64,000 nucleotides of DNA from Chloroflexota bacterium (GTDB lineage: Bacteria; Chloroflexota; UBA11872), in NCBI GenBank assembly GCA_022826485.1, contig JAJDUU010000026.1, positions 1-64,000 of the forward strand, read 5' to 3'. Below are positions 22,442 to 58,060 of this stretch, piece after piece. Position 1 is the first letter of the stretch. Each line of letters begins with the position of its first letter. The notes below the pieces were generated by a model that ran no database searches, was not told the origin of the DNA, and saw nothing but the letters and a program-made list of their open reading frames with translations. The translations under genes and the position numbers were made by a program.

Positions 22442-22613
22442 GTCCGAGACCTCCACGTCCTATCCAGCGGTTGTCCTCAATCTTCGGCGGCCAGACCGCG
22501 GCGCTCCACGCGAGCCGACGGCTCACCGAGGCCCGCAGGGTCCTCACTAGCCCAAACGCCGCGAGTATGTCTGTGGTCGATCTCAGGCATTAAGCCGATC
22601 CTGGCCCGACTTG

Positions 22614-25472: not shown

Positions 25473-25689
25473 GCGCGGCGCCTCCGCGTCGTCTCGAACA
25501 TTGGCGGTTCCACGGCCATCCCGCCGTTCGAGACGCCTGCATGGCCTCGTCCGGTCAGGACGGCGCTGGGAGTCCCCGGCGCCGTTTCACGTTGGCCGGA
25601 TTCTGGATTTCGGCTTCCGCCGGAATGACGCGCGGTTTCGCGCATTGCTCTATTCGATGGCCAGTTGCGACGCCTGCGGGCCAGGGTAG
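25473..25689. repeat. Spacer with a family B repeat
   Basis: The 217 bp between the 513-residue gene and unit 4 hold one divergent composite B element ending at 25631 (arms TTTCGGC/GCCGGAAT-like, tail GACGCG). It is the largest gap inside the 39-kb co-directional run. I see no promoter or terminator with confidence. Confidence 0.6.
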
Positions 25690-27325: not shown

Positions 27326-30157
27326 CTAGCGGCGCGAACCGGCGACCACATCGTCGAAGACGTCATAGGCAATCTCACCGGCCTCGGAAACGCGGATCCG
27401 CAGCACGGGAATCAGGCCCGCGTGCCGCCAGTAGTTTGGCTGCCATTCATGCTGCAGGCGGACCGCGAGCGTCCAGGCCCCCGCCCCGAGCGCTTGCGCC
27501 GATCCGCCGGCCGGGGTGAACACGCCATTCGCATCCCCCACGGCCAGGCTGGGCGCGAGAATATCGAACTGGTAGACGAATGTGTTCGTCGCCATGCCGG
27601 GCGCGAGCTGACCCGGGAACCACGCCACGGATCCCAGGTTGCGCCCACCAGGATCCACGTGCATCGGAATGGCCCACGGCGAGCTGTCGCCCAGCAGGAG
27701 GACCCATTCCTGGCCCGTCCACTGCTCAGGCGCGCGGTTGTCGAAGCTGGCGGTAAAGGCGATGCGCCCATCCGCGATACGCACGTCCGTCACCTGCACT
27801 CCGACCGGGGCAGGCTCGGACGCCGGCGGCGGCGGCATGATCGGCGCCACGGCGCCGTCGGGCGCGTAGACGGCAATCTCGTCGTTCCACCAGATGGGTT
27901 GACGCCCGGCTGGCGGGAACATCCACGGCGCGACCTCGGGCCACAGGATCACCAGATCCGCCGCTTGCCCGGCGAACCGCTCATACGGCCAGGGCGTCAG
28001 CAGATGCAACATGGTGGGGTCCACGAAGCCGAGCAACTGGGCGTGGGAGAGCGTCGCGGCCACGCGGAGCGCCGGCACCGTGCGGAAGGGCGCGGGCATG
28101 TACACCGTGGCGTCGGCGGGCACCGCCCGGCGCAGCGCCTCGTAGGAGGTCGGCGCCGGCGACACGTCCAGCAAGAAAAACGCGGGCCTAATCCGGTACA
28201 GCGCCTCGGCGCCGTCGCGGATCAGGAGCTCGAATAGGTTCGAGTCCGCGAGCCAGCGCGCCGCCCGCTCCGGCAGACCGGCCACCCAATCGTCCGTGGC
28301 ATGGATGTAGTCAAGCTCCAGCCGACGAACCGCCGCCGGTTCGAGATGGTGCAGCACGTCGAGGTATTCGGGACCGGTGTGCGACAGGAAGTATTGGCGG
28401 TCGAGAAATCCCGACGCATTGGGGCGGCCGGTGGCGAATGCCACGGCGGCGAAGGATAGATCAGCGGGCGTGGGCGAGAAGACTCGCGCGTCAACCGCGG
28501 TGTGGTCCCAGACGTACGCGGCGACTCGGCTGGACATAGCCGGCATGGCAAATCTGCCTTCACCGGCGAAGGCCGCGTCGGGCTGCCGCGGCGTCGGCGC
28601 GGCGTTTGCCAGGGCGACGCCCTGCCCGATCGCGAGTCCCAGGTTTCGCACCGGGGCCACGAGCGTCGGCCAGGCGACGAGGACGACGAGCAGGGCGCCA
28701 GCAGCATAGCGCCAGCGCACCGATGGCAAGCGGGACAGGCACGGCGCGAGCGCCAGCAGCAGGGCCAGCAGCGCGAGGTTGCGCGCGTGCCCAAAGAAGC
28801 GGCTTAGCACCCAGGGCGCGGCGTCGTACCGGAGCGCCACCCCGGCCAGCACCAGCAGGCCAACGCCCACCACCAGCGCCAGGACCAGGCGGTTGCGCCA
28901 GGCGAGGAGCGCCGCAATACCGGCGATGACCACCGGGCCGCCGCGCAGCAGACCAACCCCGCCGGGCAACACATCGAAGGCGCCCAGCGGTCGATAGAAC
29001 CCCGGATGGTCGGCCCACCCAAACGACAAGCCGGACGATCCCGAACCCGTGAGCGCCGACGCCAGCGAGCCACCGCCGAACGCGAGCAGCAGCAGCGCGA
29101 GCACCGGCCCGGCTCCCGATCGCACGGCGGCTTTTCCGAGCGCCGCACGATCACCCCTGGATCGCACCAGAGTCGCGGCTTCCAATCCACCCCAGAGGAC
29201 AAGCAGGATCGGGGCCAGCGTGGTGGCGAGCAATCCCACGAAACCAACCAGGCCGGCCAGCGTAAGCATGGCGAGCCAGGTGCGGCGCTCCGCCCGCGCG
29301 GCGTGCTCCAGCACCACGAACGCCAGAGCGTAGGACAGCGTGTAGACGAATCTCCAGATATCCGGCAACGCCGCTCGCTCCGACTCCCACGGCAACTCCA
29401 CCAGCGGCCAGTAGATCCCGGTCAGCGAGGCGCGGATTCCAGCCGCCGGAATCCCCGCCGGGAGCGGAACCTGCACGATGTCGACGGCGTCGCCGATAAA
29501 GGTCCAAGCCCCGGCGGTGAGCAGCAACGGCGCCGTGAGCAGCACCGCGAACTTCGAGGCGTACCGGAGGAGCGCCGTCACGACCACCAGGAAGAATCCC
29601 GTCCACAGCCACACATCCAGGACTTCGGTGGTCAGGGCCAGATCCGGGCCAAACGGCGGCGCCAGCAGGCCGATCAAAAGGCCGGTGCCGTGGTGGTAGG
29701 ACGCCGGCAGGTCGGGAGTCCAGAAGAACACCGGCGGGAACCCGCCGGCGCGGATCGAGGCGGCCAGCCCCAGGTGGTTGATGGCGTCGGGAATCGACAG
29801 GATTTGCCGGCTGGCAATCGCCACCCAACAGAGCGCCAGAACGGCGACCGCGAAGGCGGCGACCGTGCGCGGCCTGAGGTGGAGGCGGTCAGGGAAGCGC
29901 CAGGCGAGCACCGCAGCGGCAGCGACGACGAGGACCCAGGCCACGGCCGCCCCGGCGAGCCCGGGGACGACGTACATGATGAAGTTCGCCAGCAAGCCCC
30001 AGAGCGCCGGACCGACCACCAGGCCCTGGGCCAGCGCCATGCGATCGTCGGTCTGGCGGAGCGCCACGCGAACCACGGCGTACCCGACCGCGGCCAGCAC
30101 CAGGAGCTCCGCCAGCAACAGCAACAGGCCCGGAATCACCGTCGGATCGACCGTCAC
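27326..30157 (-). CDS. Array unit 5: GT-C-like polytopic membrane protein
   Basis: 943 residues. First loop IPDAINHLGL and YHHGTG; membrane part ends RFFGHARN, the only unit with two Phe here. Variable segment FAAVAFATGRPNASGF then LDRQYFLSH, with a few extra residues before the invariant core. The C-terminal domain differs in EQWTGQEWVLLLGDSSPWAI, where Glu replaces the usual Asp. Signature HEWQPNYWR. GTG start with GGAG ten bases upstream. It is the last gene before the array is broken by the 513-residue membrane gene, and its 158-bp upstream spacer is not like the 68-bp spacers of units 6-9. Confidence 0.8.
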   Translation of the reverse strand: MTVDPTVIPGLLLLLAELLVLAAVGYAVVRVALRQTDDRMALAQGLVVGPALWGLLANFIMYVVPGLAGAAVAWVLVVAAAAVLAWRFPDRLHLRPRTVAAFAVAVLALCWVAIASRQILSIPDAINHLGLAASIRAGGFPPVFFWTPDLPASYHHGTGLLIGLLAPPFGPDLALTTEVLDVWLWTGFFLVVVTALLRYASKFAVLLTAPLLLTAGAWTFIGDAVDIVQVPLPAGIPAAGIRASLTGIYWPLVELPWESERAALPDIWRFVYTLSYALAFVVLEHAARAERRTWLAMLTLAGLVGFVGLLATTLAPILLVLWGGLEAATLVRSRGDRAALGKAAVRSGAGPVLALLLLAFGGGSLASALTGSGSSGLSFGWADHPGFYRPLGAFDVLPGGVGLLRGGPVVIAGIAALLAWRNRLVLALVVGVGLLVLAGVALRYDAAPWVLSRFFGHARNLALLALLLALAPCLSRLPSVRWRYAAGALLVVLVAWPTLVAPVRNLGLAIGQGVALANAAPTPRQPDAAFAGEGRFAMPAMSSRVAAYVWDHTAVDARVFSPTPADLSFAAVAFATGRPNASGFLDRQYFLSHTGPEYLDVLHHLEPAAVRRLELDYIHATDDWVAGLPERAARWLADSNLFELLIRDGAEALYRIRPAFFLLDVSPAPTSYEALRRAVPADATVYMPAPFRTVPALRVAATLSHAQLLGFVDPTMLHLLTPWPYERFAGQAADLVILWPEVAPWMFPPAGRQPIWWNDEIAVYAPDGAVAPIMPPPPASEPAPVGVQVTDVRIADGRIAFTASFDNRAPEQWTGQEWVLLLGDSSPWAIPMHVDPGGRNLGSVAWFPGQLAPGMATNTFVYQFDILAPSLAVGDANGVFTPAGGSAQALGAGAWTLAVRLQHEWQPNYWRHAGLIPVLRIRVSEAGEIAYDVFDDVVAGSRR

Positions 30158-30315: not shown

Positions 30316-33150
30316 CTATGGCAGCGGTCTCACCTGCATGGGGCTGTCGACGGGCGCATAGGACGCCACGCCATCGTCCGTGATCGTGATCCGCACGAGC
30401 GGAATGAACGCCGCGTCGCGCCAGGAGTTCGGTCGCCACTCGTGCCGCAGTCGGACCGCGAGGGTCCAGGCGCCGGAATCGAGGCTGCCTTCGGTGGATG
30501 CCACCGCGACCCACCGGCCATCGGCCTGCCGCACCTCCAGCCTTGGCTCGCGGGGGTCGAACGCATACGTGTGGGCCACCGCCCCCGACCCGGGCGCGAC
30601 CTGGCCGGCAAACCACCGAACCTGCGCCGGGATGCGGCCGCCATGCAGAAACGCGGTTGGAATGGCCCAGGGCGATTCGTCTCCGTTAACGATCACCCAA
30701 TCCTGGCCGGACCATTGCCGTGAATCCTGAGTGTCCCAGTTCACCGTGAAGACGAAGCGTTGATCCTGGGCTTGGGCGTCGGACACACGAATGCCGACGA
30801 GCGGCGGCGCGGGCTCGACCGCTGGCGGCGGCATGATCGGGGCCACGGCTCCGTCGGGCGCATAGACCGCAATCGCGTCGGTCCACCAGATGGGCTGACG
30901 ACCGTCGGGCGGGAACATCCAGGGCGCAAACTGCGCCGACGTGATCACGAGGTCGGGGGCATGTCCGTCCACCGGTTCGACCGGCCAGGGCGACAAGAGG
31001 TGCAGCAGCGTCCCGGGCACGGCGCCGAACAGCCGGGCATGGGACAGGGTCGATGCCACCTGGAGCGCTTCCACCGTCCCGAAGGAGGGCGGCAGATACA
31101 CCGTCGCGGTGGCGGGAACCGCCTGCCGCAGCGTCTCGAACGACGCCGGCGTCGGCGGCACGTCCAGCGCCAGAAACGCCGGACGCACGCGATAGAGCGC
31201 CTCCGATCCGTCTCGCACCACGGGCTCGAACAGCTCGGAGTCGGCCAGCCAGCGCTGCGCCCGAGGCGCCAGAACCGACACCCAGCCATCCGTCGCGTGG
31301 ACGAACTCGATGCCGAGCCGCCGGATGGCGCCCGGCTCGAGATACCTGGCGATGTCGAGGTATTCGGGACCGAGCCGGGGATACATGTGCACGTGCCCGA
31401 AGAACCCGGACGCGCTTGGACGGCCGGTGGCAAAGGCCACGGCGCCGAATCCCGGCGTGGGCGAGAACACGCGCGCGTCTACCGGCGTGCGGTCGCGGAG
31501 GTAGGCGGCAATGCGGTCGGCCACGGACGGCAGCTCATAGCGGCCCTGGTGCGAGTAGCGCGCGGCGGCCTCCGCCGGCGGGATGCGTGCATTGGCGACC
31601 TCGACCCCCTGCCCCAGGGTCAGGCCGAGATTGCGAACGGAGGGCGAGATCGTGGGCCATACGACGAGCGCCACGAGCAGCCCGGCGGCGGCGTAGCGCA
31701 GGCGCGGGGGCTGCAATTTGGCGAGACGCACACTGAGCGCCAGCAGCAACGCCAGCAGCGCGAAGTTTCGGGCGTGGCCGTCGAAGCGCGCCAGGTCCCA
31801 GGGGGCAGGCTCATAGCGCAGCACCAGCTTGGCCAGCATCAGCGCCCCGACGCCGGCGACCAGTGCCAGCACCAGGCGGTCGCGCCACGCCAGCGCCACG
31901 GCCATGGCGGCGACGATGATCGGGCTTCCAGCCGTGCCCAGCAGGCCGATGCCGCCGGGCCGCGACTGGATCGACCCCTGCACCCACGAGCGCCACTCAT
32001 GGCCGTTCCACCCGAAGGAGATCCCGATCAACTCCGTGTTGGCGAGGTTCGACTTGAGCGTGCCGCCGCCGATGGCCAGCAGGACCAGCCCCAGTGCCAG
32101 TCCGACGCCCGATCGCAGCAGCGCCATGCGTCGCCCGGCGTGGGCAGCTTCCGGCTTGACGAGATGCGCCAGCTCGAGCGCGCCCCACGCAGCCAGGATC
32201 ACCGGAGCGACGGTGGCCGAGAGCACGCCGACGAAGCCGATCATCCCGGCGAGCGCCAGCGACGCGGACCACGAACGACCGCCGGGATCCGCGGCGCGTT
32301 CGAGCACCACCAACGTGAGCGCATAGGACAGGGGATGCCGCGGCAGCCAGATATCCGGAACCCCGATAAACGGCGACGGCAACGGCCACTCCACGGACGG
32401 CCAGTAGATCTCCCCCAGCGACGCGCGAATTCCGGCGGAGGGAATGCCTGTCGGGACGGGAACTTGCAGGATGTTGGCGAAGAGTCCGGTTTGAGTCCAG
32501 GCGCCATACCCGAGCAGAAGCGGCACGGTGACCAGCACGGCGAATCGCGACGAGCGCCGCAGGAGCGCCGTCACCACCACCAGGATGAAGCTCGTCCAGG
32601 CATACGCGCCGAGCAGCTCGGTGACGAACGCGAGGTTGGGTCCGAATGGCGGCGTCAGCGCCGCCACCAGGAGGTCCGAGCCGTAGTGATAGGGCGCGGC
32701 GACGCCCGGACTCCAGAAGAAGCTGGGCGGAAAGCTGCCCGCGCGAATCGCGCCGGACATGCCCAGGTGGTCCGGCGCGTCGGGAATGGTGAGGGCCTGA
32801 CGGGCGGCGAGGCCGACCCACAGCAGCGCCAGCACGACGACGGCAAACCCCGCCAGCATGCGCGGCTCCGGTCGAATGCGCTCCGGCGCGCGCCAGGAAA
32901 GCACCGCGCCCAGCCCTAGCGTGATCCCCCAGCCGACGGCCGCGCCGGTGAGCCCCGGCCACAGGTACATGAGCAGGTTGACCACCACGCCCCACAGCGC
33001 CAGGCCGACCACCAGGCCCTGCGCTACGGCCATGCGGTCGTCGCTCTGACGGAGCACGACACGAACGACGATGAAGCCCACCGCGGCCAGCGCCATGAAC
33101 TCGCCCGCGAGGAGTAGCAGTCCCGGGAGGACGGCCGGATCGACGGTCAT
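30316..33150 (-). CDS. Array unit 6: GT-C-like polytopic membrane protein
   Basis: 944 residues. First loop IPDAPDHLGM and PYHYGSD; RFDGHARN. The loop near residues 365-400 differs from all others (TLKSNLANTELIGISFGWNG, then SWVQGSIQSRPGGIGLL), so this outer loop is also diversified. Variable segment GFGAVAFATGRPSASGF then FGHVHMYPR, shared with unit 2. Outer domain signature HEWRPNSWR, the last unit of that type: units 7-12 have another sequence there. ATG start with TTGAGGAA eight bases upstream. The 68-bp spacer after unit 7 closely resembles the two next spacers. Confidence 0.8.
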   Translation of the reverse strand: MTVDPAVLPGLLLLAGEFMALAAVGFIVVRVVLRQSDDRMAVAQGLVVGLALWGVVVNLLMYLWPGLTGAAVGWGITLGLGAVLSWRAPERIRPEPRMLAGFAVVVLALLWVGLAARQALTIPDAPDHLGMSGAIRAGSFPPSFFWSPGVAAPYHYGSDLLVAALTPPFGPNLAFVTELLGAYAWTSFILVVVTALLRRSSRFAVLVTVPLLLGYGAWTQTGLFANILQVPVPTGIPSAGIRASLGEIYWPSVEWPLPSPFIGVPDIWLPRHPLSYALTLVVLERAADPGGRSWSASLALAGMIGFVGVLSATVAPVILAAWGALELAHLVKPEAAHAGRRMALLRSGVGLALGLVLLAIGGGTLKSNLANTELIGISFGWNGHEWRSWVQGSIQSRPGGIGLLGTAGSPIIVAAMAVALAWRDRLVLALVAGVGALMLAKLVLRYEPAPWDLARFDGHARNFALLALLLALSVRLAKLQPPRLRYAAAGLLVALVVWPTISPSVRNLGLTLGQGVEVANARIPPAEAAARYSHQGRYELPSVADRIAAYLRDRTPVDARVFSPTPGFGAVAFATGRPSASGFFGHVHMYPRLGPEYLDIARYLEPGAIRRLGIEFVHATDGWVSVLAPRAQRWLADSELFEPVVRDGSEALYRVRPAFLALDVPPTPASFETLRQAVPATATVYLPPSFGTVEALQVASTLSHARLFGAVPGTLLHLLSPWPVEPVDGHAPDLVITSAQFAPWMFPPDGRQPIWWTDAIAVYAPDGAVAPIMPPPAVEPAPPLVGIRVSDAQAQDQRFVFTVNWDTQDSRQWSGQDWVIVNGDESPWAIPTAFLHGGRIPAQVRWFAGQVAPGSGAVAHTYAFDPREPRLEVRQADGRWVAVASTEGSLDSGAWTLAVRLRHEWRPNSWRDAAFIPLVRITITDDGVASYAPVDSPMQVRPLP

Positions 33151-33218
33151 TCAGCGTTCCTCAACGGCAGCTTCCGGGTTTGCGACGTGTTGCTTCCCGC
33201 GTGGCGCCGGCGCCCACG
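33151..33218. repeat. Conserved 68-bp inter-unit spacer
   Basis: This spacer and those at 36051-36118 and 38957-39024 are all exactly 68 bp and clearly homologous (CTCAACGGC near one end, TTTGCGACGTG or TCTGCGACGTG in the middle, CACGCTA at the stop of the upstream unit). On the coding strand they give the downstream ribosome binding site. They show that the duplicated module is gene plus spacer. Confidence 0.85.
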
Positions 33219-36050
33219 CTAGGGTTCGAGCAGGTCATCGTAGACCTCGTACGACACGGCGCCGTCCTCGGTTATCGTCGCCTTCAGCACTGGAATGAAT
33301 GCCGCTACCTCGTGCGCCAGGTAGGTGCCGCGGTCCACCTCCTGCCGCAGCCGCAGCGCCAGCGTCCAAGAGCCGGGTCCGATCATCCCAGCGGACGATT
33401 CCTCAGTCCTGAATCCCCCGTCGCCGGTACGCACCGCCAGGGTCGACGACGCGGCATCGTAGACATACCCGTGCGTCGTGGTCCCTCGTCCCCGCACGAC
33501 CTGGCCGGCGAACCACTGCTCCACCACCGGCTTGCCGCCATCCAGATGTTGCGGGATTGTCCACGGTGATTCATCGACATTGATAAGCACCCAATCCTGT
33601 CCCGCCCAGCGTTCGGGCGAGTGATCGTCGACCGTCAGGGTGAAGCTGATCTGCCCCGCCGCCTGCCGCACGTCCGACACCCCCACGCTGATTGGCGGCG
33701 GTTCCGGCGGCGCACTGTCGGGCGGCGGCATGATCGGCGGAACGGCTCCGCCGGGCGCGTAGACGGCCATCTCGTGTTTCCACCAGATAGGTTGCCGGCT
33801 CTCCGGCGGGAACATCCACGGCTCCTGCTCTCGCGGCAGGATCACCAGGTCCGGCGTCTGCGCGCCGAGCGGTTCGGCGGACAACGAGCTCAGGGCGTGC
33901 GCCCTTCGCTGCATGTACTTCAGCACACCAAATAGTTCGGCCTCAGGCGAAAGCACCGACGCAATGCGCAGGGTGGTGTCGGTCTCGAAGGGCGCGCCGG
34001 TCGGCCAGTACACCAGGGCGCCTGGGGGCACGGCCTGCAGCAGCGCCTCGAACGACGCGGGCGTCGGAGGCGCCTCCAGCGCCAGGAACGCCGGGCGCAC
34101 GCGGTAGAGCACCACGTCGCCATCCCGCACCACGGGCTCAAACAACTCGGGGTCGGCCAGCCAGCGCCGCGCCCGCTCCGGCAGCCCCTCGACCCAAGCG
34201 TCCGTGGCGTAGACGTAGTCGAAACCGAGCCGCTCGATGGCCCCCGGCTCCAGATAGTCGCGGGCATCCATGAACTCCGGGCCAATGACGTATCGCTGAT
34301 GGGGCATGTTGGCGTAACCCACGCCGTTCGGGCGGCCGGTGGCGAAGAGCACGTTCCAGTGAGGCGGCTCGGGCACGAGCACGCGCGCGTTCAGCGCGGC
34401 GTGGTCCCGGACGTAGGTCACAACTCGTTCGGATACGGCGGGCATCGCCGCCCGCCCCCATCCATAGATCTCGGTGGCTGCCGGCCGCAGCGACCCGGCG
34501 TTGGCCACCTCGACCCCCTGGCCCAACGCCAGCGCAAGATTTCGGCCCGGCGTCACGACCGTCGGCCAGACGATCAGTCCCACCAGCAGCGCGCCCGCGG
34601 CATAGCGCCAGCGAGGACGCAGGGTCACCAGGCGCGCGCTCAGGGCCAGCAGCAGCGCCACCAGGGCAAGGTTGCGCGCGTGACCCGCCATCCGGTTGAT
34701 GTTCACCGGATAGGACTCATAGCGAAGCAGCAGCCAGGCCAGCGTCAGTAGAGCCGCGCCAACGGCCAGTGTCAGCACCAGACGGTCGCGTCGCGCCAGC
34801 AGCGCGGCAATGCCCGCCACGGCCACCGGTCCCAGCGCCAACAGGGCCACGCCGCCGGGGCGTGGATCAAACACGCCCAACACGCGCCAGTCGCCCGGGC
34901 TGCCGTCCCACCAGAACGAGAGTCCGGGGGACGCGGAGCCCAGGAGCATTCCCGTAAACGCGCCGCCGCCGGCCAGCAGCAGGGCCACGGCCAGCGCCAG
35001 GCCGGCGCTCGGCGCGACCACGGCTCGCCACGTCAAGGCTCGCGCGCGCCAGGCTTGCCCGAGCGGCGCCGCCTCGAGACCCGCCCAGAGCAGCAAGCTC
35101 ACCGGCGCCATGGTCGTCGACAACAGGCCAATCCACCCCACCAGCCCCGCCAGTGTCAGGTGTGCCCGCCACGACCGGCGCTTGCCCTGCGCCGCGCGCT
35201 CCGCCACCACGATCGTCAGCGCGTACGCCAGTGGAAATTGGGGCTTCCAAACGTTGGGCAGCACAGCCTCCGTGCGCCGCCAGGGCTGATCCGCGGTCGG
35301 CCAGTAGATTTCGGCCAGCGAGGCGCGCAGGCCCGCCTCCGGGAGCCCGGACGGGAATGGTCCCTGCAATATCCCTGGGCCCACGGCCGCCCACGTCCAG
35401 AGGCCGCCGGTGAGCAGCAGCGGGGCGAGCACCAGCGCCACTCGCCACGAGCCGCGCGCCGCCAGCAGCGTCACCACCACCAGCGTGAAGCTCGTCCACC
35501 CATAGACGCCCAGCAGCTCCGAAACGAATGCCAGGTCGGGCCCCACCGGCGGCGTCAGCAATCCAACGAGGAGCTCGGTGGCATGGTGATAGGGCAAGAG
35601 CACGCCCGGATTCCAGGGCGCCTCCGGCGGGAATCCGCCCGCTTGCATCCAGGCCGACACCCCCAGATATACGTGTGGGTCGGAGATGGTCAGTTGCTGC
35701 CGGCTGGCGAGCGCTACCCACATGAGTGCAAGGACCGCCAGGGCGAATCCCGCCGCCACGCGAGGCCGCGGACCAATGGGTTTGGGCGCGCGCCACGCCA
35801 GCACCGCGCCGAGCGTCAGCGTGAGACCCCAGCCCACGGCTGCGCCGGCGAGCCCCGGCACGGCGTAGAGCACGAAGTTGGTGATCAGGCCCCACAGCGC
35901 CGGGCCAACCACCAGCCCCTGCGCCAGGGCCACGCGGTCGTCGGCCTGGCGGAGCACGACCCGCGCCACGATGAAGCCCACCACGGCGAGGGCGGCGAGC
36001 TCGGCCAGAAGCAGGAGAAAGCCCGGCACGACCGCCGGATCGACGGTCAT
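33219..36050 (-). CDS. Array unit 7: GT-C-like polytopic membrane protein (reference member)
   Basis: 943 residues, used here for family numbering. About 12 hydrophobic segments fill residues 8-510. A cytoplasmic loop LRQADDRVALAQGLVVG (33-49) follows the first. The first outer loop has Asp124 (ISDPHVYLG) and Tyr154-His155-His156; the family's His128 is Tyr in this unit only. RMAGHARN is at 453-460, WNVLFATGRPNGVGY at 565-579, YATDAW at 614-619. A Pro-rich linker (771-787) leads to the C-terminal beta domain with ERWAGQDWVLINVDESPWTI and the clade signature EVDRGTYLAHE. ATG start. Over residues 705-790 it is nearly identical to unit 11, four places away. Confidence 0.82.
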   Translation of the reverse strand: MTVDPAVVPGFLLLLAELAALAVVGFIVARVVLRQADDRVALAQGLVVGPALWGLITNFVLYAVPGLAGAAVGWGLTLTLGAVLAWRAPKPIGPRPRVAAGFALAVLALMWVALASRQQLTISDPHVYLGVSAWMQAGGFPPEAPWNPGVLLPYHHATELLVGLLTPPVGPDLAFVSELLGVYGWTSFTLVVVTLLAARGSWRVALVLAPLLLTGGLWTWAAVGPGILQGPFPSGLPEAGLRASLAEIYWPTADQPWRRTEAVLPNVWKPQFPLAYALTIVVAERAAQGKRRSWRAHLTLAGLVGWIGLLSTTMAPVSLLLWAGLEAAPLGQAWRARALTWRAVVAPSAGLALAVALLLAGGGAFTGMLLGSASPGLSFWWDGSPGDWRVLGVFDPRPGGVALLALGPVAVAGIAALLARRDRLVLTLAVGAALLTLAWLLLRYESYPVNINRMAGHARNLALVALLLALSARLVTLRPRWRYAAGALLVGLIVWPTVVTPGRNLALALGQGVEVANAGSLRPAATEIYGWGRAAMPAVSERVVTYVRDHAALNARVLVPEPPHWNVLFATGRPNGVGYANMPHQRYVIGPEFMDARDYLEPGAIERLGFDYVYATDAWVEGLPERARRWLADPELFEPVVRDGDVVLYRVRPAFLALEAPPTPASFEALLQAVPPGALVYWPTGAPFETDTTLRIASVLSPEAELFGVLKYMQRRAHALSSLSAEPLGAQTPDLVILPREQEPWMFPPESRQPIWWKHEMAVYAPGGAVPPIMPPPDSAPPEPPPISVGVSDVRQAAGQISFTLTVDDHSPERWAGQDWVLINVDESPWTIPQHLDGGKPVVEQWFAGQVVRGRGTTTHGYVYDAASSTLAVRTGDGGFRTEESSAGMIGPGSWTLALRLRQEVDRGTYLAHEVAAFIPVLKATITEDGAVSYEVYDDLLEP

Positions 36051-36118
36051 TCAGCCTGTCTCAACGGCAGTCTCTGGTTCTGCGACGTGTTGCTTTCCGC
36101 CTGGCGCCGACGTCCACG
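36051..36118. repeat. Conserved 68-bp inter-unit spacer
   Basis: Second copy of the spacer described at 33151-33218, between units 7 and 8. Small substitutions only. The ribosome binding site it supplies to unit 7 is weaker than in the other two copies. Confidence 0.85.
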
Positions 36119-38956
36119 CTAGGGGCTGCGAAGGTCATCGTAGACCTCGTACACGACCGCACCGTCCTCGGAGACCGTCACCTTCAGCACTGGAATGAAT
36201 GCCGCTTCCTCATGCGCAAGGTACGTGCCACGGTCTACCTCCTGCCGCAGGCGCAGCGCCAGCGTCCACGAGCCGGGGCCGATCATCCCAGCGGACGATT
36301 CTTCGGTCCTGAATCCCCCGTCGCCCGTGCGCACGTGCAGCGAGGACGCCACGGCATCGAAGACATATCCATGCGTCGAAGTCCCTCGCCCCCGCACCAC
36401 CTGGCCGGCGAACCATTGCTCCACGACCGGCGTGCGTTGATCGGACTCCAGGTGCTTGGGGATCGCCCAGGGCGACTCGTCGACGCTGATGAGCACCCAA
36501 TCCTGTCCCGACCAGCGGTCCGGCGAGTGATCCTCGACCGTGATCGTGAAGGCCAGCCGCCCGTCCGAGACCCGCACGTCCGACATCCGCAAGCTGATGG
36601 GTGGAGGCTCGTGCGGTCGCCAGGCGTCCGGCGGCGGCATGATCGGCGCCACGGTCCCGTGCGGCGCGTAGATGGCCATCGACTCATGCCACCAGATCGG
36701 TTGCCTGCCTTCCGGCGGGAACATCCACGGATCGAGTCCCACGGGCACGATCACCAGGTCCGGCGTCTGCTCGCCAAGCGACTCGACCGGTACCGGCGTG
36801 AGCGCATGCAATCGCCGCAGCGCGTATTTGAGCACGCCGTACAGTTGCGCCTCCGGCGCCAGCACCGAGGCTACCCGCATGGTGGTATCCGTCTCGAATG
36901 GCGCGCCGGAAGGCCAGTACACCTTGGCGCCCGCGGGCACCGTCCGCCGGAGGGCCTCGAACGACGCCGGCGTCGGCGGCACGTCCAGCGCCAGAAATGC
37001 CGGCGTCACCCGATAGAGCGCCTCGGCGCCGTCGCGCACCAGCAACTCGAACAACGCCGGATCGGCCAACCAGAGCCGCGCCCGGACCGGCAAGCTCGCC
37101 GACCATTCGTCCGTGGCATAGAGATAATCGAATCCCAGCCGCCGCGCAGCGCCCGGCTCCAAAGAGTTGCGCACATCCAGGTACTCGGGACCAAAGACGA
37201 ATTGCTGGTGGCGCAGATTGGGGAAACCCGCGCTGTTTGGGCGGCCGGTAGCTGACGTGATCTTCCACACGAACTGTCCCGGCACGAACACGCGTGCGTC
37301 GACCTCGGTATGGTCGCGAATGTAGGCCGCAACTCGCGCCGAAACTGGGGGCAACGCCGTTCGCCTTAGCGCGGCTGACTCGCCGGCTGACGGCGGCGCC
37401 CATTCAGCATTCGCCACCTCGATGCCTTGTGCGAGCGCCATCCCCAAGTTGCGCACCGGTTCCACGCTCGTCGGCCAGATGACCAGGCCGGCGAGCAGCG
37501 CGCCGGCGGCGTAGCGCCAGCGGGGTCGCAACCGCGCGAGGCGCACGCTCACGGCCAGCACAAGCGCCAGCAGCGCGAAGTTGAATGCGTGCCCCGCCAG
37601 CCGGTTGATGTCGAACGGATGGAGCTCGTAGCGCAGCACGAGCCAGGCCAACCCCAGCAGGCCGGCGCCCACGGCGAGCGCCGTCACCAGGCGGTCGCGC
37701 CACACCAGCAGCGCGGCGAGCGCCGCCCCAACCACCGGGCCAATCGTGACCAGGCCCACCCCGCCCGGCCGAGCGTCGAACGCGCCCAACAGCCGCCAGG
37801 ACTGTGGATTGCCCTCCCACCAGAACACGAGGCCGGAGGACAGGGAACCCTGGAGCATTCCCGTAAACCTGCCGCCGCCGGCCAGCAGCAGGACCACCGC
37901 CAGCGCCAGGCCGGCGACCGGCCGCAGCACGGCCCGCCAGGTCAGTGCTCGCGTGCGCCGGACCTGCCCGAGAAGTGGCAGCGCCTCAACGCCCGCCCAG
38001 AGCGCGAGCACCAGCGGGGTGAGCGATGTGGCCAGCAGGCCGATCCAGCCGACCAAGCCTGCCAGCGCCACGGTCGCCGGCCACGACCGACCCGCGCCCT
38101 TCGCCGCACACCCCAGCACCACAAGCGTCAACGCATACGCCAGCGGGTACTGGGGATTTCGAAGATTGGGCAATGCCGTATCCCAGATCAGCGACTGGCC
38201 CGAGGTCGGCCAGAACACCTCGGCTAGCGACGCGCGCAAGCCCGCCTCGGGCAGCCCCGCCGGAATCGGACCATGGAGAATCCCGCTTCCCAACGAGGTA
38301 CCCGTCCAGAGACCGGGCGAAAGCAGGAGCGGCGCGAGCAACAGCGCCACTCGCCAGGAACTGCGCACCAAGAGCATCGTTACCACCAACACCGCGAGGC
38401 TTGTCCAGGCGTAGACGCCCAACAACTCCTTCACAAAAGCCAGATCAGGCCCAAACGGCGGCGCCAACAGCCCGATGAGAAGGTCGACGCCGTGGTGGTA
38501 ACGGAGGGGCGCGCCGGGACTCCAGGACAGCTCCGGCGGAAACCCACCCGCTCGGAATGCCGCGGCCATTCCCAGGTGGAGCGCCGGATCGGCAACGCTC
38601 ACGAGCTGATGACTCGCGAGCGCCACCCACGAGAGCGCCAGGACCAACGCGGCAAACCCGGCCGCCAGGCGCACCCGCGGCCAGGCGGGGCGCCCGCGCC
38701 ACGCCAGGATTACGCCGAGCGTCAGCGTCACGCTCCAGCCCACGGCTGCGCCGGCGAGCCCCGGCACGGCGTAGAGCGCGAAGTTGGTGATCAGGCCCCA
38801 CAGCGCCGGGCCAACCACCAGCCCCTGCGCCAGCGCCATGCGGTCGTCGGCCTGGCGGAGCACGACCCGCGCCACGATGAAGCCCACCGCGGCGAGGACG
38901 GCGAACTCGGCCAGAAGCAAGAGAAAGCCCGGCACGACCGCCGGATCGACGGTCAC
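36119..38956 (-). CDS. Array unit 8: GT-C-like polytopic membrane protein
   Basis: 945 residues. First loop VADPALHLGM and YHHGVD; LASHQ replaces the usual LASRQ before the Asp; RLAGHAFN with Phe instead of Arg. Variable segment FVWKITSATGRPNSAGF then PNLRHQQFVF, whose KIT motif is shared only with unit 12. The segment ALRRLHALTPVPVESLG and LVIVPVGLDPWMFPP also pair it with unit 12, and the latter with unit 9. Signature EVDRGTYLAHE. GTG start with GAGGAAAG five bases upstream. Confidence 0.82.
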   Translation of the reverse strand: MTVDPAVVPGFLLLLAEFAVLAAVGFIVARVVLRQADDRMALAQGLVVGPALWGLITNFALYAVPGLAGAAVGWSVTLTLGVILAWRGRPAWPRVRLAAGFAALVLALSWVALASHQLVSVADPALHLGMAAAFRAGGFPPELSWSPGAPLRYHHGVDLLIGLLAPPFGPDLAFVKELLGVYAWTSLAVLVVTMLLVRSSWRVALLLAPLLLSPGLWTGTSLGSGILHGPIPAGLPEAGLRASLAEVFWPTSGQSLIWDTALPNLRNPQYPLAYALTLVVLGCAAKGAGRSWPATVALAGLVGWIGLLATSLTPLVLALWAGVEALPLLGQVRRTRALTWRAVLRPVAGLALAVVLLLAGGGRFTGMLQGSLSSGLVFWWEGNPQSWRLLGAFDARPGGVGLVTIGPVVGAALAALLVWRDRLVTALAVGAGLLGLAWLVLRYELHPFDINRLAGHAFNFALLALVLAVSVRLARLRPRWRYAAGALLAGLVIWPTSVEPVRNLGMALAQGIEVANAEWAPPSAGESAALRRTALPPVSARVAAYIRDHTEVDARVFVPGQFVWKITSATGRPNSAGFPNLRHQQFVFGPEYLDVRNSLEPGAARRLGFDYLYATDEWSASLPVRARLWLADPALFELLVRDGAEALYRVTPAFLALDVPPTPASFEALRRTVPAGAKVYWPSGAPFETDTTMRVASVLAPEAQLYGVLKYALRRLHALTPVPVESLGEQTPDLVIVPVGLDPWMFPPEGRQPIWWHESMAIYAPHGTVAPIMPPPDAWRPHEPPPISLRMSDVRVSDGRLAFTITVEDHSPDRWSGQDWVLISVDESPWAIPKHLESDQRTPVVEQWFAGQVVRGRGTSTHGYVFDAVASSLHVRTGDGGFRTEESSAGMIGPGSWTLALRLRQEVDRGTYLAHEEAAFIPVLKVTVSEDGAVVYEVYDDLRSP

Positions 38957-39024
38957 TCAGCTTTCCTCAACGGCGGGTTCCGGGTTTGCGACGTGCCGCG
39001 TCCCGCTTGGCGTCGGCGCGCACG
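38957..39024. repeat. Conserved 68-bp inter-unit spacer
   Basis: Third copy of the same spacer, between units 8 and 9. The next spacers (41863-41931, 44773-44839) are of nearly equal length (69 and 67 bp) and keep CCACGCTA at the upstream stop, but are otherwise diverged. Confidence 0.85.
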
Positions 39025-41862
39025 CTACGGGTCGAGCAGGTCATCGTAGATCTCATACACGATCGCGCCGTCCTCGGAGACCGTCACGTTCAGCACCGGT
39101 ATCACCGCGGCATGCTCGTGCGTGACATAGGCGCCGCGGTCCACTTCGCGCAACAGCCGCAACGCCAGCGTCCACCTGCCCGGGCCGGTCACCCCGGCCG
39201 ACGATGCTTCCGTCCGATACGCACCGTCGCCACTCCGCACCGCCAATGTGGACGACGCGGCATCGTAGACGTAGGCGTGCGTCGTGGCCCCTCGTCCCCG
39301 CACGATCTGGCCCGCGAACCATTGCTCCACGACCGGTGTGCGTTGATCGGACTCCAAGCGCCTGGGGATCGCCCAGGGCGATTTGTCGACGCTGAGAAGC
39401 ACCCAGTCCTGTCCCGACCAGAGGTCCGGCGAGTGATCGTCGACGGTGAGCGTGAAGGCCATCCGCCCGTTTGCCGCGCGCACGTCCGACGCCCGCACGC
39501 TGATTGGCGGCGGCTCAGGCGGCGCGACATCCGGCGACTGCATGACCGGCGCCATGGCCCCATGCGGCGCGTAGACGGCCATCTCGTCGTTCCACCAGAT
39601 CGGCTGGCGGCTCTCCGGCGGGAACATCCACGGATCAAGTCCCACCGGCACGATCACCAAGTCCGGCGTCTGGTCACCCAGGCGTTCCGACGACATCGGC
39701 GTCAGCGCGTAGGTCTTCCTGCGCATATACGTCAGCACACCGAACAGGCGAGCATCGGGAGACAGCACCGACGCCACCCGCAGCGTGGTCTCGGTTTCGA
39801 AGGGCGCGCCGCTTGGCCAATACACCATCGTGCCCGCGGGCACCGCCTGCCGCAGCGCCTCGAACGAGGCCGGGCTCGGGGAAACCTCCAGCGCCAGGAA
39901 CGCGGGCCGCACCCGATAGAGCGCCTCGGCGCCGTCGCGCACCAGCAGCTCGAACAACGCCGGATCCGCCAGCCAGCGCCGCGCACGATCAGGCAATCCC
40001 GCGATCCAATCGTCGGTGGCATAGATGTAGTCGAAGCCCAGTCGCCGCAGGGCCGCCGGCTCCAGATAGTGGCGGGCATCAACGAACTCAGGACCGTTCT
40101 TGGCCAGCAAGTGCCGCACGTTGGGGTATCCCGCGGCGTTCGGGCGTCCCGTGGCGTATGTCACCGAGAGATAGGGCCACTCGGGCACGAGGACCCGCGC
40201 ATCGACCGCGGTGTGGTCCCGAATATGGGCGGCGACGCGCGTGGAGATGACAGGCAACGTGGATCGCCCTCGCGCGTCAGTCTTTGAAATTGCCGGCCGC
40301 AGCGATCCGGCATTGGCCAGGTCGACGCCTTGGCCGAGCGCCAATCCCACGTAGCGGACCGGTCCCACGGCCGTCGGCCAGATGACCAGGCTCAACAGCA
40401 ACGTGCCCGCGGCAATCCGCCAACGGGGCCGCAGAGCCGCCAGGCGGGGGCTCAGGGCCAGCAGCATTGCCAGCAGGGCGAAGTTGCGCGCGTGCCCGGC
40501 GAGCCGCTTGAGATCGATCGGATAGGGCTCGTAGCGCAGCACCAGCCAGGCCACGGCCAGCATTGCGGCGCCGACCGCCAGCGCCAGCACCAAGCGGTCG
40601 CGCCGCGCCAGCAGCACGCCGATCCCCGCCACCACCACCGCGCCAATTTCCAACAGGCCCATGCCGCCTGGCCGGACGTCTAACGTGCCCAGCAATTGCC
40701 AGTTGCGCGGGTCGCCGTCCCACCAGAACACGAGACCCGAAGACGCCGAGCCGTCCAAGAGCTCGGTAAATTTGCCGCCGCCGATCAGCAGCAGCGCCAC
40801 GGCCAGCCCGAGCCCCACGCCGGGCCGCAGCATTCGACGCCAGGTCAAGGCCGTCGCGCGCCAGGCCTTCGCGAGAGGTATCGCCTCAAGGCCCGCCCAG
40901 AGCACCAGCACCACTGGGGCCAGCGTCGTTGACACCAGGCCCATAAAGCCAACCAACCCCGCCAGCGTCAGGGTCGCCGGCCATGAGCGGACGGCGTCCC
41001 GCGCCACGCGCTCCAGCACCACGACCGCGAGCGCGTACGCCATGGTGAACGAGGGCTTCCAGATGTCGGGCAGCGCGGCGAACGGCGTGGACAGCGGCAA
41101 CTCGGCGGTCGGCCAGTAAATCTGGGCCAGTGAGGCGCGCAGCCCCGCCGCGGGCAGACCGGCCGGGACCGGCCCCTGCAGAATCCCCGGCGCCCAGCCC
41201 TGCCAGGTCCAGAGGCTGGTTGAGAGCATGAGCGGCGCGAGCAGCAGGGCGATTGGCCACGACGCCCGGGACGCCAGCGCGGTCACCACAATCAGCACAA
41301 AGCTGGTCCAGGCGTAGACGCCCATCAGCTCGGTCACGAATGCGAGATCGGGACCGACCGGCGGGGTCAGCAGACCGATGAGCAGATCAATCCCGTGGTG
41401 GTAGCGCACGAAAATGCCCGGGCTCCAGGGCAACTCCGGCGGAAACCCGCCCGCCCGCAGCGTGGCCGCCAGGCCCAGGTGAATCGCGTCGTCAGGAATC
41501 ACCAGGAGCTGACGGCTGGCAAGGCCCGCCCAGAGCAGCGCCAGAACCACGGCCGCGAACCCCGCCAACATCCGCGGCTCCGGTCGAATGCGTTCGGGCG
41601 CGCGCCAGGCCAGCACGGCGCCCAGCGCCAGCGTGACGCCCCACCCAATCGCCGCGCCTGCGAGTCCCGGCACGGCGTAGAGAACGAGATTCGTGATCAG
41701 GCCCCAGAGCGCGAGGCCGACGACCATGCCCTGCGCCAGCGCCATGCGGTCGTCGGTCTGGCGGAGCGCCACGCGAACCACGATGAAGCCCACGCCGGCC
41801 AGCGCCACGAGCTCTGCCAGGAGCAGCAGGAAGCCCGGCAGGACCGTCGGGTCAACGATCAT
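39025..41862 (-). CDS. Array unit 9: GT-C-like polytopic membrane protein
   Basis: 945 residues. First loop IPDDAIHLGL and RYHHGID; RLAGHARN. Variable segment WPYLSVTYATGRPNAAGY then PNVRHLLAKN, close to unit 11. It has LVIVPVGLDPWMFPP like units 8 and 12, and in its outer domain a stretch (39,320-39,385) almost identical in DNA to unit 8 (36,415-36,480). Signature EVDRGAYVTHE. N-terminal parts (ERIRPEPRMLAGFA) match unit 6 instead, again a mosaic. ATG start with GGGGAGAG five bases upstream. Confidence 0.82.
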   Translation of the reverse strand: MIVDPTVLPGFLLLLAELVALAGVGFIVVRVALRQTDDRMALAQGMVVGLALWGLITNLVLYAVPGLAGAAIGWGVTLALGAVLAWRAPERIRPEPRMLAGFAAVVLALLWAGLASRQLLVIPDDAIHLGLAATLRAGGFPPELPWSPGIFVRYHHGIDLLIGLLTPPVGPDLAFVTELMGVYAWTSFVLIVVTALASRASWPIALLLAPLMLSTSLWTWQGWAPGILQGPVPAGLPAAGLRASLAQIYWPTAELPLSTPFAALPDIWKPSFTMAYALAVVVLERVARDAVRSWPATLTLAGLVGFMGLVSTTLAPVVLVLWAGLEAIPLAKAWRATALTWRRMLRPGVGLGLAVALLLIGGGKFTELLDGSASSGLVFWWDGDPRNWQLLGTLDVRPGGMGLLEIGAVVVAGIGVLLARRDRLVLALAVGAAMLAVAWLVLRYEPYPIDLKRLAGHARNFALLAMLLALSPRLAALRPRWRIAAGTLLLSLVIWPTAVGPVRYVGLALGQGVDLANAGSLRPAISKTDARGRSTLPVISTRVAAHIRDHTAVDARVLVPEWPYLSVTYATGRPNAAGYPNVRHLLAKNGPEFVDARHYLEPAALRRLGFDYIYATDDWIAGLPDRARRWLADPALFELLVRDGAEALYRVRPAFLALEVSPSPASFEALRQAVPAGTMVYWPSGAPFETETTLRVASVLSPDARLFGVLTYMRRKTYALTPMSSERLGDQTPDLVIVPVGLDPWMFPPESRQPIWWNDEMAVYAPHGAMAPVMQSPDVAPPEPPPISVRASDVRAANGRMAFTLTVDDHSPDLWSGQDWVLLSVDKSPWAIPRRLESDQRTPVVEQWFAGQIVRGRGATTHAYVYDAASSTLAVRSGDGAYRTEASSAGVTGPGRWTLALRLLREVDRGAYVTHEHAAVIPVLNVTVSEDGAIVYEIYDDLLDP

Positions 41863-41931
41863 TCGACTCTCCCCACCCGACGACGCGGACCTTGCGACGG
41901 GGGCGTTTCGTATTCAGCGGCGGCGCCCACG

Positions 41932-44772
41932 CTACCCGGCGCGGACCTCATCGTAGACCTGATATGCCACCTTGCCGTCTGGGAGGACAGTCGCCTTGAG
42001 CACCGGGATCAACGCGGCTGGTTCATGCGTCACATAGGTCCCGCGGTCCACCTCCCGCAGCAGGCGCAGCGCCAGCATCCAACTGCCGGAGCCCTGCACT
42101 GGGGTTGACGACGCCTCGGTCCGATATTGTCCGTCGCCACCCCGCACCGCCAGGCTGGACGCGCCCGCATCGTAGACGTAGCCGTGGACCGTCGTCCCCC
42201 GCCCTCGCACCATCTGGCCGGCAAACCACTGCTCGACGACCGGCGTGCGCCGGTCGGCTTCCAGGTGCGTGGGGATTCCCCACGGCGACTCATCGACGTC
42301 GATGAGCACCCAGTCCTGCCCGGACCATTGGTCGGGCGAGTGATCGTCGACGATGACGGTGAAAGCCAGCCGCCCGTCCGCCTCGCGTACGTCCGACACC
42401 CGCACGCTGATCGGCGGCGGCTCTGACGGCGCGGCATCCGGCGGCGGCATGACCGGCGCCACGGCCCCGTGCGGCGCATAGACGGCCATCTCGTCGTTCC
42501 ACCAGATCGGCTGCCGGCCCGCCGGCGGAAACATCCATGGCTCCTGCTCTCGGGGCAGGATCACCAGGTCCGGCGACTGGCCACCGAGCGGTTCGGTCGG
42601 CAACGACGTGAGCGCGTATATCCGTCGGCCCGCATATTTGAGCACGCCGATCAACCGGGTCTCCGGCGTCAGCACCGAGGCGACGCGCAGCGTCGTGTCG
42701 GTCTCGAACGGAGCGCCGGTTGGCCAGTACAGGGTGGCGCCCGACGGAACGGCCCGCCGCAGGGCCTCGAACGACGCGGGGGTGGGCGGCGCGTCCAGCG
42801 ACGCGAACCCCGGCCGCACGCGGTAGAGGGCCGCCGCGCCGTCGCGCACCAGCAGCTCGAACAACTCGGGGTCGGCCAGCCAGCGCCGCGCGCGATCAGG
42901 CAGCCCAGCCACCCAATCGTCGGTGGCATAGATGTACTCGAAGCCCAGCCGCCGCACGGCGCCCGGCTCCAGATAGTCGCGGGCATCCAGAAACTCGGGG
43001 CCAAGGGGCTGATACAGATGCAGCACGTTGGCGTATCCGACGCTGTTCGGGCGGCCCGTGGCGTAGGCGACGGTCAGGTAGGGCGGCTCAGGCACGAGCA
43101 CTCGCGCATCAACCGCGGTGTGGTCATGGATATAGGTCACGATGCGCGCGGACACGGCGGGCAATACCGTTCGCCCCATCCACGACGGAGCCCCGCCGTT
43201 GGCGGTCGTTCCCGACGGGTCAGCGTTGGCTAGCTCGATCCCTTGGCCAATTGCGAACCCCAGGTTGCGAACCGGCGCCACGACCGTCGGCCAGATGACC
43301 AAACCCAGCAACAGCGCGCTCGCGGCATAGCGCCAGCGAGGACGCAGCACCGCCAGATGGGCGCTCAGCGCCAGCAGCACCGCCACCAATGCGAAGTTGC
43401 GCGCGTGTCCCGCCAGGCGGTGAATGTCCCTGGGAAACGGCTCATGGCGCAACACCAACCAGGCGACGGCCAGCAGCGCGGCGCCCACCGCCAACGTCAG
43501 CGCCAAGCGGTCGCGCCGCCCGAGGAACGCCGCAACTCCGGCCAGGGCCACCGGCCCGATCTCCAACAGGCCGACGCCACCCAGCCGCCCGTCGAGTGCG
43601 CCCAGCAATTGCCAATCGCCTGGATCACCGTCCCACCCGAACACGAGGCCCGAGGACCCGGAGCCGTCCAACAGCCCCGTGAACCTTCCACCGCCGGCCA
43701 GCAGCAGCGCGACGGCGAGCACGAGCCCCGCGCCCGGCCGCAGCACCTGGCGCCACCGGAAGGCGCGTGCGCGCCAGGTCTTTGCAAGCGGCAGCGCCGC
43801 CAGGCCCGCCCAGAGCACGAGCACCACCGGCGTGAGCGATGTCGACACCAAGCCCATGAAGCCGACCACACCCGCCAGCGACAGGATCGCCGGCCACGAG
43901 CGGTCCGTCCCCTGCGCCGCACGCTCGAGGACCGATACCGCGAGTGCGTAGGCCAGCGTGTATGACGGCCCCCAGATGTTCGGCACCACGCGTCCCCAGT
44001 GGAGGGTCTCTCCCTCGGTCGGCCAGTAGATCTCTCCCAGTGACGCGCGCAGCCCCGCCGCGGGCAGCCCGGCAGGGACCGGCCCTTGCAGGATTGCCGG
44101 GCTCAGGCCGGTCCAGCCCCAGAGGCCGCTGGTGAGCAGCAGCGGCGTGAGCAGCAGCGCAAGGCGCCACGACCCGCGCGCCAGCAGCGCGGTCGCCGCC
44201 ACCAGCACGTAGCAGATCCAGGCGTAGGCACTCAGCAACTCGTGCACGAACGCGAGATCGGGTCCACCCGGCGGGGCCAGAAGGCCGATCAGCAGATCGA
44301 GGCCGTGGTGATAGCGCACGGGCATACCCGGATTCCAGGGCAGTTCGGGCGGAAACCCGCCCGCGCGAATCGCGGCGGACAGCCCCAGATGAAGCTCATC
44401 GTCCGGAATCGCCAAGAGCTGGCGGCTCGCCAGCCCCACCCAGAACAGCGCCACGACCACCGTGGCGAATCCCGCCACGGTGCGCCGGCTTGGTCCAATG
44501 GGTTTCGGCGCGCGCCACCACAGCACCGCGCCCAGGGTCAGCGTGACGCCCCAGCCCACCGCCGCGCCCGCCAGCCCGGGGACGGCGTAGAGGACGAAAT
44601 TCGTGATGAGGCCCCAGAGGGCGAGGCCGACCACCATGCCTTGCGCCAAGGCCATGCGGTCGTCGGTCTGTCGGAGCGCCACGCGCACGACAATGAAGCC
44701 GACGCCGGCCAGCACCACGAGCTCCGCCAGGAGCAGGATGAATCCCGGCAGGACCGCCGGATCAACGGTCAT
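41932..44772 (-). CDS. Array unit 10: GT-C-like polytopic membrane protein
   Basis: 946 residues. First loop IPDDELHLGL and RYHHGLD; the next membrane segment carries GGPDLAFVHELLSAYAWICY, with a Cys that other units lack. RLAGHARN. Variable segment PPYLTVAYATGRPNSVGY then ANVLHLYQPL. It has LVILPREQEPWMFPP, as do units 7 and 11. Outer domain DQWSGQDWVLIDVDESPWGI and EVDRGTYVTHE. ATG start with a weak ribosome binding site. Spacer of 67 bp to unit 11 and 69 bp to unit 9. Confidence 0.82.
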   Translation of the reverse strand: MTVDPAVLPGFILLLAELVVLAGVGFIVVRVALRQTDDRMALAQGMVVGLALWGLITNFVLYAVPGLAGAAVGWGVTLTLGAVLWWRAPKPIGPSRRTVAGFATVVVALFWVGLASRQLLAIPDDELHLGLSAAIRAGGFPPELPWNPGMPVRYHHGLDLLIGLLAPPGGPDLAFVHELLSAYAWICYVLVAATALLARGSWRLALLLTPLLLTSGLWGWTGLSPAILQGPVPAGLPAAGLRASLGEIYWPTEGETLHWGRVVPNIWGPSYTLAYALAVSVLERAAQGTDRSWPAILSLAGVVGFMGLVSTSLTPVVLVLWAGLAALPLAKTWRARAFRWRQVLRPGAGLVLAVALLLAGGGRFTGLLDGSGSSGLVFGWDGDPGDWQLLGALDGRLGGVGLLEIGPVALAGVAAFLGRRDRLALTLAVGAALLAVAWLVLRHEPFPRDIHRLAGHARNFALVAVLLALSAHLAVLRPRWRYAASALLLGLVIWPTVVAPVRNLGFAIGQGIELANADPSGTTANGGAPSWMGRTVLPAVSARIVTYIHDHTAVDARVLVPEPPYLTVAYATGRPNSVGYANVLHLYQPLGPEFLDARDYLEPGAVRRLGFEYIYATDDWVAGLPDRARRWLADPELFELLVRDGAAALYRVRPGFASLDAPPTPASFEALRRAVPSGATLYWPTGAPFETDTTLRVASVLTPETRLIGVLKYAGRRIYALTSLPTEPLGGQSPDLVILPREQEPWMFPPAGRQPIWWNDEMAVYAPHGAVAPVMPPPDAAPSEPPPISVRVSDVREADGRLAFTVIVDDHSPDQWSGQDWVLIDVDESPWGIPTHLEADRRTPVVEQWFAGQMVRGRGTTVHGYVYDAGASSLAVRGGDGQYRTEASSTPVQGSGSWMLALRLLREVDRGTYVTHEPAALIPVLKATVLPDGKVAYQVYDEVRAG

Positions 44773-44839
44773 TCATCGACCCTGACCGAAGGCGTCCGAG
44801 CTCGGGATCGAGGGCGTCGGAGCGTCGCTGGCATCCACG

Positions 44840-47671: not shown

Positions 47672-47759
47672 GCCGGAGGCCTCCCCGCGACCGCCGCGCG
47701 TCTACTCAATGCGGCCGCGCTCTCGATCCATCAAGTTCCGATGATTGCCGACGCCAATG

Positions 47760-55855: not shown

Positions 55856-56029
55856 GGGCAGGGCCTTGCGCGGGCATACGGGCATGCCGCCGAACCGTGG
55901 CACGCCGCCGCGCCGACCGTCAACGGGAGGGGAGGTGCCCCTGGCGGCGTCTCACGATGCCACTGCCCCGCCCAGGTCGGCCCGCCGCGTTTGGGGCGAC
56001 CGGTTCTGGCTCATCGTTGGCAGTCGCGG

Positions 56030-56724: not shown

Positions 56725-56749
56725 GGCCCATGCTCCCGTCGTGGATCTG

Positions 56750-56772
56750 GTCTAGACTAGACTAGTCTAGAC
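56750..56772. promoter_or_regulatory. Probable operator of the toxin-antitoxin pair
   Basis: Two copies of the perfect 8-bp palindrome GTCTAGAC (56750-56757 and 56765-56772), with centres 15 bp apart, and a further 16-bp palindrome TCTAGACTAGTCTAGA across the second. The two sites lie on nearly opposite DNA faces by one and a half turns. Directly upstream of the antitoxin start, this is where the complex should bind. Confidence 0.75.
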
Positions 56773-58025: not shown

Positions 58026-58060
58026 TCTAGCCCCCTCCCTTCACGGGAGAGGGAACCGGA
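58021..58060. repeat. Family A palindrome encoding a protein C-terminus
   Basis: Arms CCCTCCC and GGGAGAGGG around TTCAC, with tail AACCGGA. On the - strand it encodes the last residues SGSLSREGRGLE of the thioredoxin-like protein and its stop codon. Confidence 0.8.

Follow-up and report, generated by a model that had tools for sequence, protein, structure and literature searches.

Membrane glycosyltransferases of the GT-C superfamily, among them AftA, ArnT, STT3/PglB/AglB and PMT, combine a multi-helix membrane part with an extracytoplasmic domain, and the first of their extracytoplasmic loops carries an acidic residue. The proteins encoded by the tandem array described here share the predicted GT-C fold and an Asp in the first loop, but they had no PDB sequence match, and no Pfam family scored above cut-off for the members tried. 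At the level of gene organization, the Trypanosoma brucei arrays of PMC1855330 likewise consist of tandem copies with patchy gene conversion among paralogs. Compared with those arrays, the present one is bacterial, its products are membrane glycosyltransferase-like, and the histories of its spacers and gene cores differ. A literature search of titles and the starts of abstracts found no paper on this array or family.

We analysed a stretch of 64,000 nucleotides (the window) at the start of its contig in a Chloroflexota genome of 3.17 Mb in 52 contigs. The minus strand carries, at positions 13995-50594, twelve homologous genes, each about 945 codons long except for a shorter final copy; we named them A to L in the order of transcription (Table 1). 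We consider it probable that they form a co-directional tandem array of GT-C-fold genes in which an old duplication of a module in units D, E and F was followed by patchy recombination within genes.

A tandem array of predicted GT-C-fold proteins

In the window and in all five other genomes of the genus, the array is flanked on one side by a GFO/IDH gene, which lies 43-50 bp from the first unit, and on the other by a gene for a DRL-type oxidoreductase. Copy number at the locus varies, with four units in genus genome G001 and twelve in the window. The last copy is shortened in all 6 genus genomes, as unit L is (profile end 765-791 of 938), which indicates that unit L is a retained shortened form and not a recent fragment. 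An unrelated gene of 513 codons (25690-27231) sits between units H and I; it has a G001 ortholog at the same place (88% identical), and searches of Pfam and NCBIfam gave no match for it.

Table 1 Units and spacers of the array, in order of transcription
Feature	Position	Strand	Size	Remarks
Unit A	47760..50594	-	944 aa	
Spacer A>B	47672..47759	-	88 bp	no detectable similarity to 68-bp spacers
Unit B	44840..47671	-	943 aa	residues 677-782 nearly the same as in unit F
Spacer B>C	44773..44839	-	67 bp	marginal similarity to 68-bp spacers
Unit C	41932..44772	-	946 aa	
Spacer C>D	41863..41931	-	69 bp	marginal similarity to 68-bp spacers
Unit D	39025..41862	-	945 aa	GT-C fold in protein model
Spacer D>E	38957..39024	-	68 bp	homologous to E>F and F>G
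Unit E	36119..38956	-	945 aa	residues 103-770 A-like, ends F-like
Spacer E>F	36051..36118	-	68 bp	homologous to D>E and F>G
Unit F	33219..36050	-	943 aa	5' tract in common with E, residues 677-785 in common with B
Spacer F>G	33151..33218	-	68 bp	3' flank of unit F; homology stops at G start codon
Unit G	30316..33150	-	944 aa	not in A-F clade
Unit H	27326..30157	-	943 aa	ortholog in genus genome G001, 91.7% aa identity
Unit I	22614..25472	-	952 aa	
Unit J	19607..22456	-	949 aa	
Unit K	16633..19470	-	945 aa	
Unit L	13995..16538	-	847 aa	final copy, without C-terminal beta domain

A short dispersed repeat, ATTCCGGCGGAAGCCGGAATCC, and its variants (up to 3 mismatches) occur in the window at 7794-7815, 15049-15070, 25605-25626 and 56984-57005, with one copy within the unit L open reading frame and one in the spacer preceding unit I; the genome holds 166 copies with up to 2 mismatches, compared with 0 for a reversed control. 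An additional copy of the family, L030 (G000:C45:41632-44395), is split into two overlapping open reading frames.

A profile search of the class (E 1e-20) found the family in 20 of 41 genomes, each with 3-18 matches; these genomes represent 3 of 13 genera and a single order. A search with a single protein (E 0.001) gave matches in 23 of 61 genomes. These spanned 5 of 29 genera, two more than the profile search, and in those two the matches were weak only. Named relatives are Chloroflexi/Chloroflexota MAGs, many with the bin names COS, RHO or jk18; from the sponge species named in PMC8163846, the COS and RHO bins appear to come from Coscinoderma and Rhopaloeides. In the relatives G013, G015, G018, G020 and G023, several near-full-length copies are listed with one internal stop (TAG or TAA), and these may be broken genes, MAG errors or matches that run past the true stop.

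The proteins form a family without a Pfam or NCBIfam name. When members were scanned singly against Pfam and NCBIfam, no family scored above its cut-off, and there were few weak matches over 43 members. The nearest named family, TIGR03662 (Chlor_Arch_YYY), reached 22.5 bits with unit L, far from its cut-off of 300.25 bits, and matched weakly in 8 of 43 aligned members, with no match in the other 35 at E 0.1. A PDB sequence search likewise returned no solved-structure relative at E 1.

A structural model of unit D, based on a 43-row alignment, was predicted with a pLDDT of 87.5 and a pTM of 0.85, and its best Foldseek match was AftA (E 5.2e-5). Structure comparison gave Z scores of 14.1 for AftA (rmsd 5.9, 481 aligned), 13.5 for ArnT (7.2, 431) and about 13 for STT3, a range of 13-14 that helical models can reach without a true relative. 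The likeness covers residues about 35-654, and the best 37 structure matches are all what we take to be GT-C enzymes or complexes containing one. Position 124 (unit D numbering), in the first loop, is Asp in 38 and Glu in 1 of the 43 aligned members, and Asp in all 11 full-length units of the window; its place in the loop suggests that it is the catalytic position. Relative to ArnT, the model and alignment ranges point to three extra N-terminal helices and an added C-terminal beta sandwich (residues about 785-930 in the unit D model). Folded alone, this C-terminal part had middling Z scores only, the best being 6.4 with the C-terminal part of OgpA; VPS26, Asf1 and the Wzt carbohydrate-binding domain scored about 5-6, and we claim no more than a beta sandwich. 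Judged from the model, the array proteins may be membrane glycosyltransferases that use lipid-linked (polyprenyl-phosphate) sugars, with a likely role in moving sugars from lipid carriers to cell-surface acceptors at the outer face of the membrane.

Homologous spacers and the extent of the duplicated piece

A preliminary description of this stretch had drawn attention to three gaps of exactly 68 bp, followed by gaps of 69 and 67 bp, and these lengths, like those of the remaining gaps in the array (88, 94, 136, 157 and 158 bp), proved correct. Its claim of homology among the three 68-bp spacers also stands. In gap-free alignment, D>E and E>F agree at 50 of 68 positions, E>F and F>G at 56 and D>E and F>G at 59, giving scores of 32, 44 and 50, whereas 3000 random 68-nt stretches drawn from the flanks of the window scored 15.2 at most (0/3000 as high). 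A 105-nt query around F>G retrieved, in the whole genome, the three spacer copies at E <= 3.2e-26 and then a next own-genome match at E 0.006. The similarity thus exceeds that of random stretches, which answers the refuting condition set in the preliminary description. In the other 5 genus genomes the same query found no conserved spacer; one match in G001 (contig C39, E 1.5e-4) was put down to chance.

The 69- and 67-bp spacers belong to this set only marginally. C>D matches the 68-bp spacers at 42-46 positions over 63-67 aligned, and B>C at 41-44 over 59-65; in the three comparisons run against the null, 2-3 of 3000 random stretches equalled the score. The likeness lies mostly in a few bases past the stop codon and before the start.

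Where the homology ends indicates what was duplicated. The three 68-bp spacers follow genes D, E and F, which belong to the A-F clade (support 100 in the whole-protein tree), and precede E, F and G, of which G lies outside that clade. F>G and D>E are about 87% alike in the spacer, but the next 60 coding nucleotides of E and G only 68%; in the genes that precede the spacers, a 60-column stretch close to the 3' end is 78-90% alike over the three pairs. Since the homology stops at the start codon of a gene from another clade, the duplicated module is the gene with its 3' spacer. That the duplicated piece for D, E and F includes non-coding DNA is supported, and to this extent the proposed module of gene plus spacer holds, whereas its recent exchange as a whole does not.

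Relatives, too, have homologous spacers of equal length, and the pattern is therefore not peculiar to this locus. In G003, two spacers of exactly 178 nt, before the units at 285.9k and 282.8k (L036), are 81% identical and follow the identity of the downstream genes, which makes the polarity of gene plus 3' spacer a local feature and not a general rule. A general rule of either kind was rejected over 903 pairs (Spearman 0.34 with the upstream 3' end, 0.29 with the downstream 5' end); the significant pairs in this comparison were selected for similarity and do not give a rate. Several species have spacers 169-178 nt long in front of genes of the I/J type. The outer spacers had been described as older. 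Units G to L do represent older lineages, but the K>L and I>J spacers have recognizable counterparts in other species, 70-77% identical, and are therefore not simply eroded.

Age of the copies and exchange within genes

The gene bodies give a different picture from that of the spacers, and the claim of recent exchange over whole modules fails on them. Units A to F share 65-74% protein identity and 55-67% identity at fourfold sites, and differ at 23-28% of coding sites. For comparison, the single-copy GFO/IDH gene that adjoins the array has a fourfold identity of 81% with G001 and 67-75% with G002-G005, and unit H and its G001 ortholog agree at 79% of fourfold sites. As the fourfold identity among A-F is below that of the neighbouring gene between species, the duplications would be old and not recent; by this yardstick, the separation of A-F would be roughly as old as that of the species in the genus, or older. 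In the whole-protein tree, A-F form a clade of this genome alone with two G002 genes as sister, which could be read, against the view of an old duplication, as a later one. The G002 pair is nested weakly within A-F in three core regions (bootstrap 47-79) and lies outside in two 3' regions. An old duplication with later homogenization of the 3' parts would give these placements, the support in the core being weak.

Exchange was detected inside the genes. Because a 20-site window saturates in the fourfold-site test (lowest p 0.024, before correction for 21 pairs), windows of 40 and 60 sites were used. In residues 2-87, E and F are identical at 59 of 60 fourfold sites, compared with 67% gene-wide (0 of 5000 permutations). 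The start codon is where the shared tract begins, and of the three spacer pairs, the two directly preceding E and F have the lowest identity (50/68, 74%); the exchange thus leaves out the preceding spacers and was not of whole modules. Between B and F, 53 of 60 fourfold sites agree in residues 677-782 (p 0.002 before correction for 21 pairs). An exact-run (Sawyer-type) test gave a global p of 0.002 for B/F and was not significant for E/F (global p 0.106). Trees of separate regions joined E with F at residues 1-95 (100/100) and B with F at 677-785 (100/99), and united A with E in four core regions (bootstrap 86-91), with E and F joined weakly at 786-940 (62/79).

Unit E is accordingly a mosaic. 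Among the best 28 of 120 ordered tests in a recombination scan, E appeared A-like at residues 103-770 in an F-like frame (z 10.1, 0 of 1000 permutations). At sites that separate A from F, E favours F by 58 to 9 in residues 1-100 and by 56 to 14 in 861-945, and A by 45 to 23 in residues 101-200 and by 48 to 30 in 677-785. Gene and spacer relationships, whose comparison had been suggested, disagree, the genes pairing as A-E, B-F and C-D and the spacers grouping D, E and F. The spacers do not mark recent exchange of the modules. Tracts with relationships unlike the rest of the gene, as expected for patchy conversion between tandem paralogs, were thus found, and near-identity of neighbouring modules in both gene and spacer, as expected for recent whole-module concerted evolution, was not. 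From these comparisons, recent exchange is present but is patchy and inside genes.

A further case comes from G004, in which two copies about 21 kb apart (L038 and L039; C2:34657-37512 and 55647-58487) share an exact core of 675 bp, with outer parts mostly 59-78% identical. This core possibly reflects very recent core conversion or a MAG assembly error. Over within-genome pairs from six genomes, 16 of 358 reached the pre-set level, 9 of these 16 with an uncorrected permutation p under 0.02.

Competing explanations and the history of the array

One feature of the spacers exceeds what a simple old duplication predicts and counts against our preferred explanation: D>E and F>G agree at 59 of 68 positions, more than the D/F fourfold sites do (279/456; Fisher 1.9e-5). 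The non-significant exact-run test for E/F, the disagreement of gene and spacer relationships, the G003 spacers that follow their downstream genes and the single-genome A-F clade also count against it. The other two spacer pairs are mildly above gene fourfold identity (Fisher 0.044 and 0.011), and unselected ortholog spacers between species show 57-80% identity against 61-85% at the flanking fourfold sites (13 pairs). The excess may stem from short conversion reaching the spacers or from partial constraint. Conversion seems to us the better explanation, since the sequence has not been retained in B>C, C>D and A>B, which lie before genes of the same kind, and no RNA structure was apparent, though 68 bp are not decisive. 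A functional origin of the likeness as a whole, with the spacers preserved as a ribosome-binding leader, an RNA element or a coupled-translation junction and not through recombination, would account for spacer identity above fourfold identity and has a parallel in other spacers of constant length across species (178 and 134 nt). We think it unlikely, given that B>C and C>D retain little of the similarity and A>B none, and that predicted RNA folds were weaker than those of shuffled sequences in all five spacers tried (minimum free energies above shuffles, z +0.85 to +2.4), so that no structure is proposed.

The original interpretation, that whole modules in this part of the array recently underwent unequal crossing-over or gene conversion, fits the equal lengths and 74-87% identity of the three spacers and their excess over the silent sites of the genes. 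It is very improbable in view of the divergence of the gene bodies (65-74% of amino acids, 55-67% of fourfold sites), the one clearly recent tract beside the spacers, which leaves them out, and the core of E, which follows A and not the adjoining units. That short conversions limited to the 3' end and spacer homogenized D, E and F according to position, at a time when the genes were already divergent, is possible, if on balance doubtful: spacers group by adjacency and genes do not, and E and F are 87% alike at their 3' ends and 82% in the spacer with an A-like core in E, yet the D/F spacers are 87% alike and the D/F 3' ends 76%, and 68 bp is too short for placing breakpoints. That the array is a repeat-region assembly artefact is scarcely credible. 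The genome is in 52 contigs with the window at a contig start, and its relatives are named as MAGs, but the longest exact shared run is 83 bp (six window pairs checked), A-F differ at 23-28% of coding sites, and five other genomes have the locus with the same genes on either side.

The history that we prefer, an old module duplication followed by patchy exchange, would run as follows. Units A to L would represent one family of large GT-C-fold membrane proteins at a fixed locus in a Chloroflexota genus. D, E and F would have arisen by tandem duplication of a gene together with non-coding DNA past its stop codon, which explains the equal length and homology of their spacers. These duplications would be old, and the copies would then have diverged. 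Later, non-allelic recombination within genes would have patched them, leaving E with about its first 87 codons F-like and an A-like core, and F with B-like residues 677-785 through intragenic exchange. The spacers would still reflect their shared origin, and short conversion events may have affected them as well, since the identity of D>E and F>G exceeds that of the D/F silent sites.

The tempting inference that equal, homologous spacers imply recent duplication is thus corrected by a clock internal to the locus. More broadly, tandem arrays in Chloroflexota are filled by an unnamed GT-C-like family, found here in one order only, whose named relatives apparently come from sponge metagenomes. 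A tentative and rather unlikely further reading is that the array works as a diversification system, in which ends and spacers are positional and the catalytic membrane core is swapped by gene conversion, so that each genome comes to have its own set of surface glycosyltransferases; unit E and the G004 copies with the 675-bp core would then be two instances of core exchange. Should core exchange be true, such arrays would be a bacterial case in which conversion diversifies not the surface antigens themselves but membrane glycosyltransferases.
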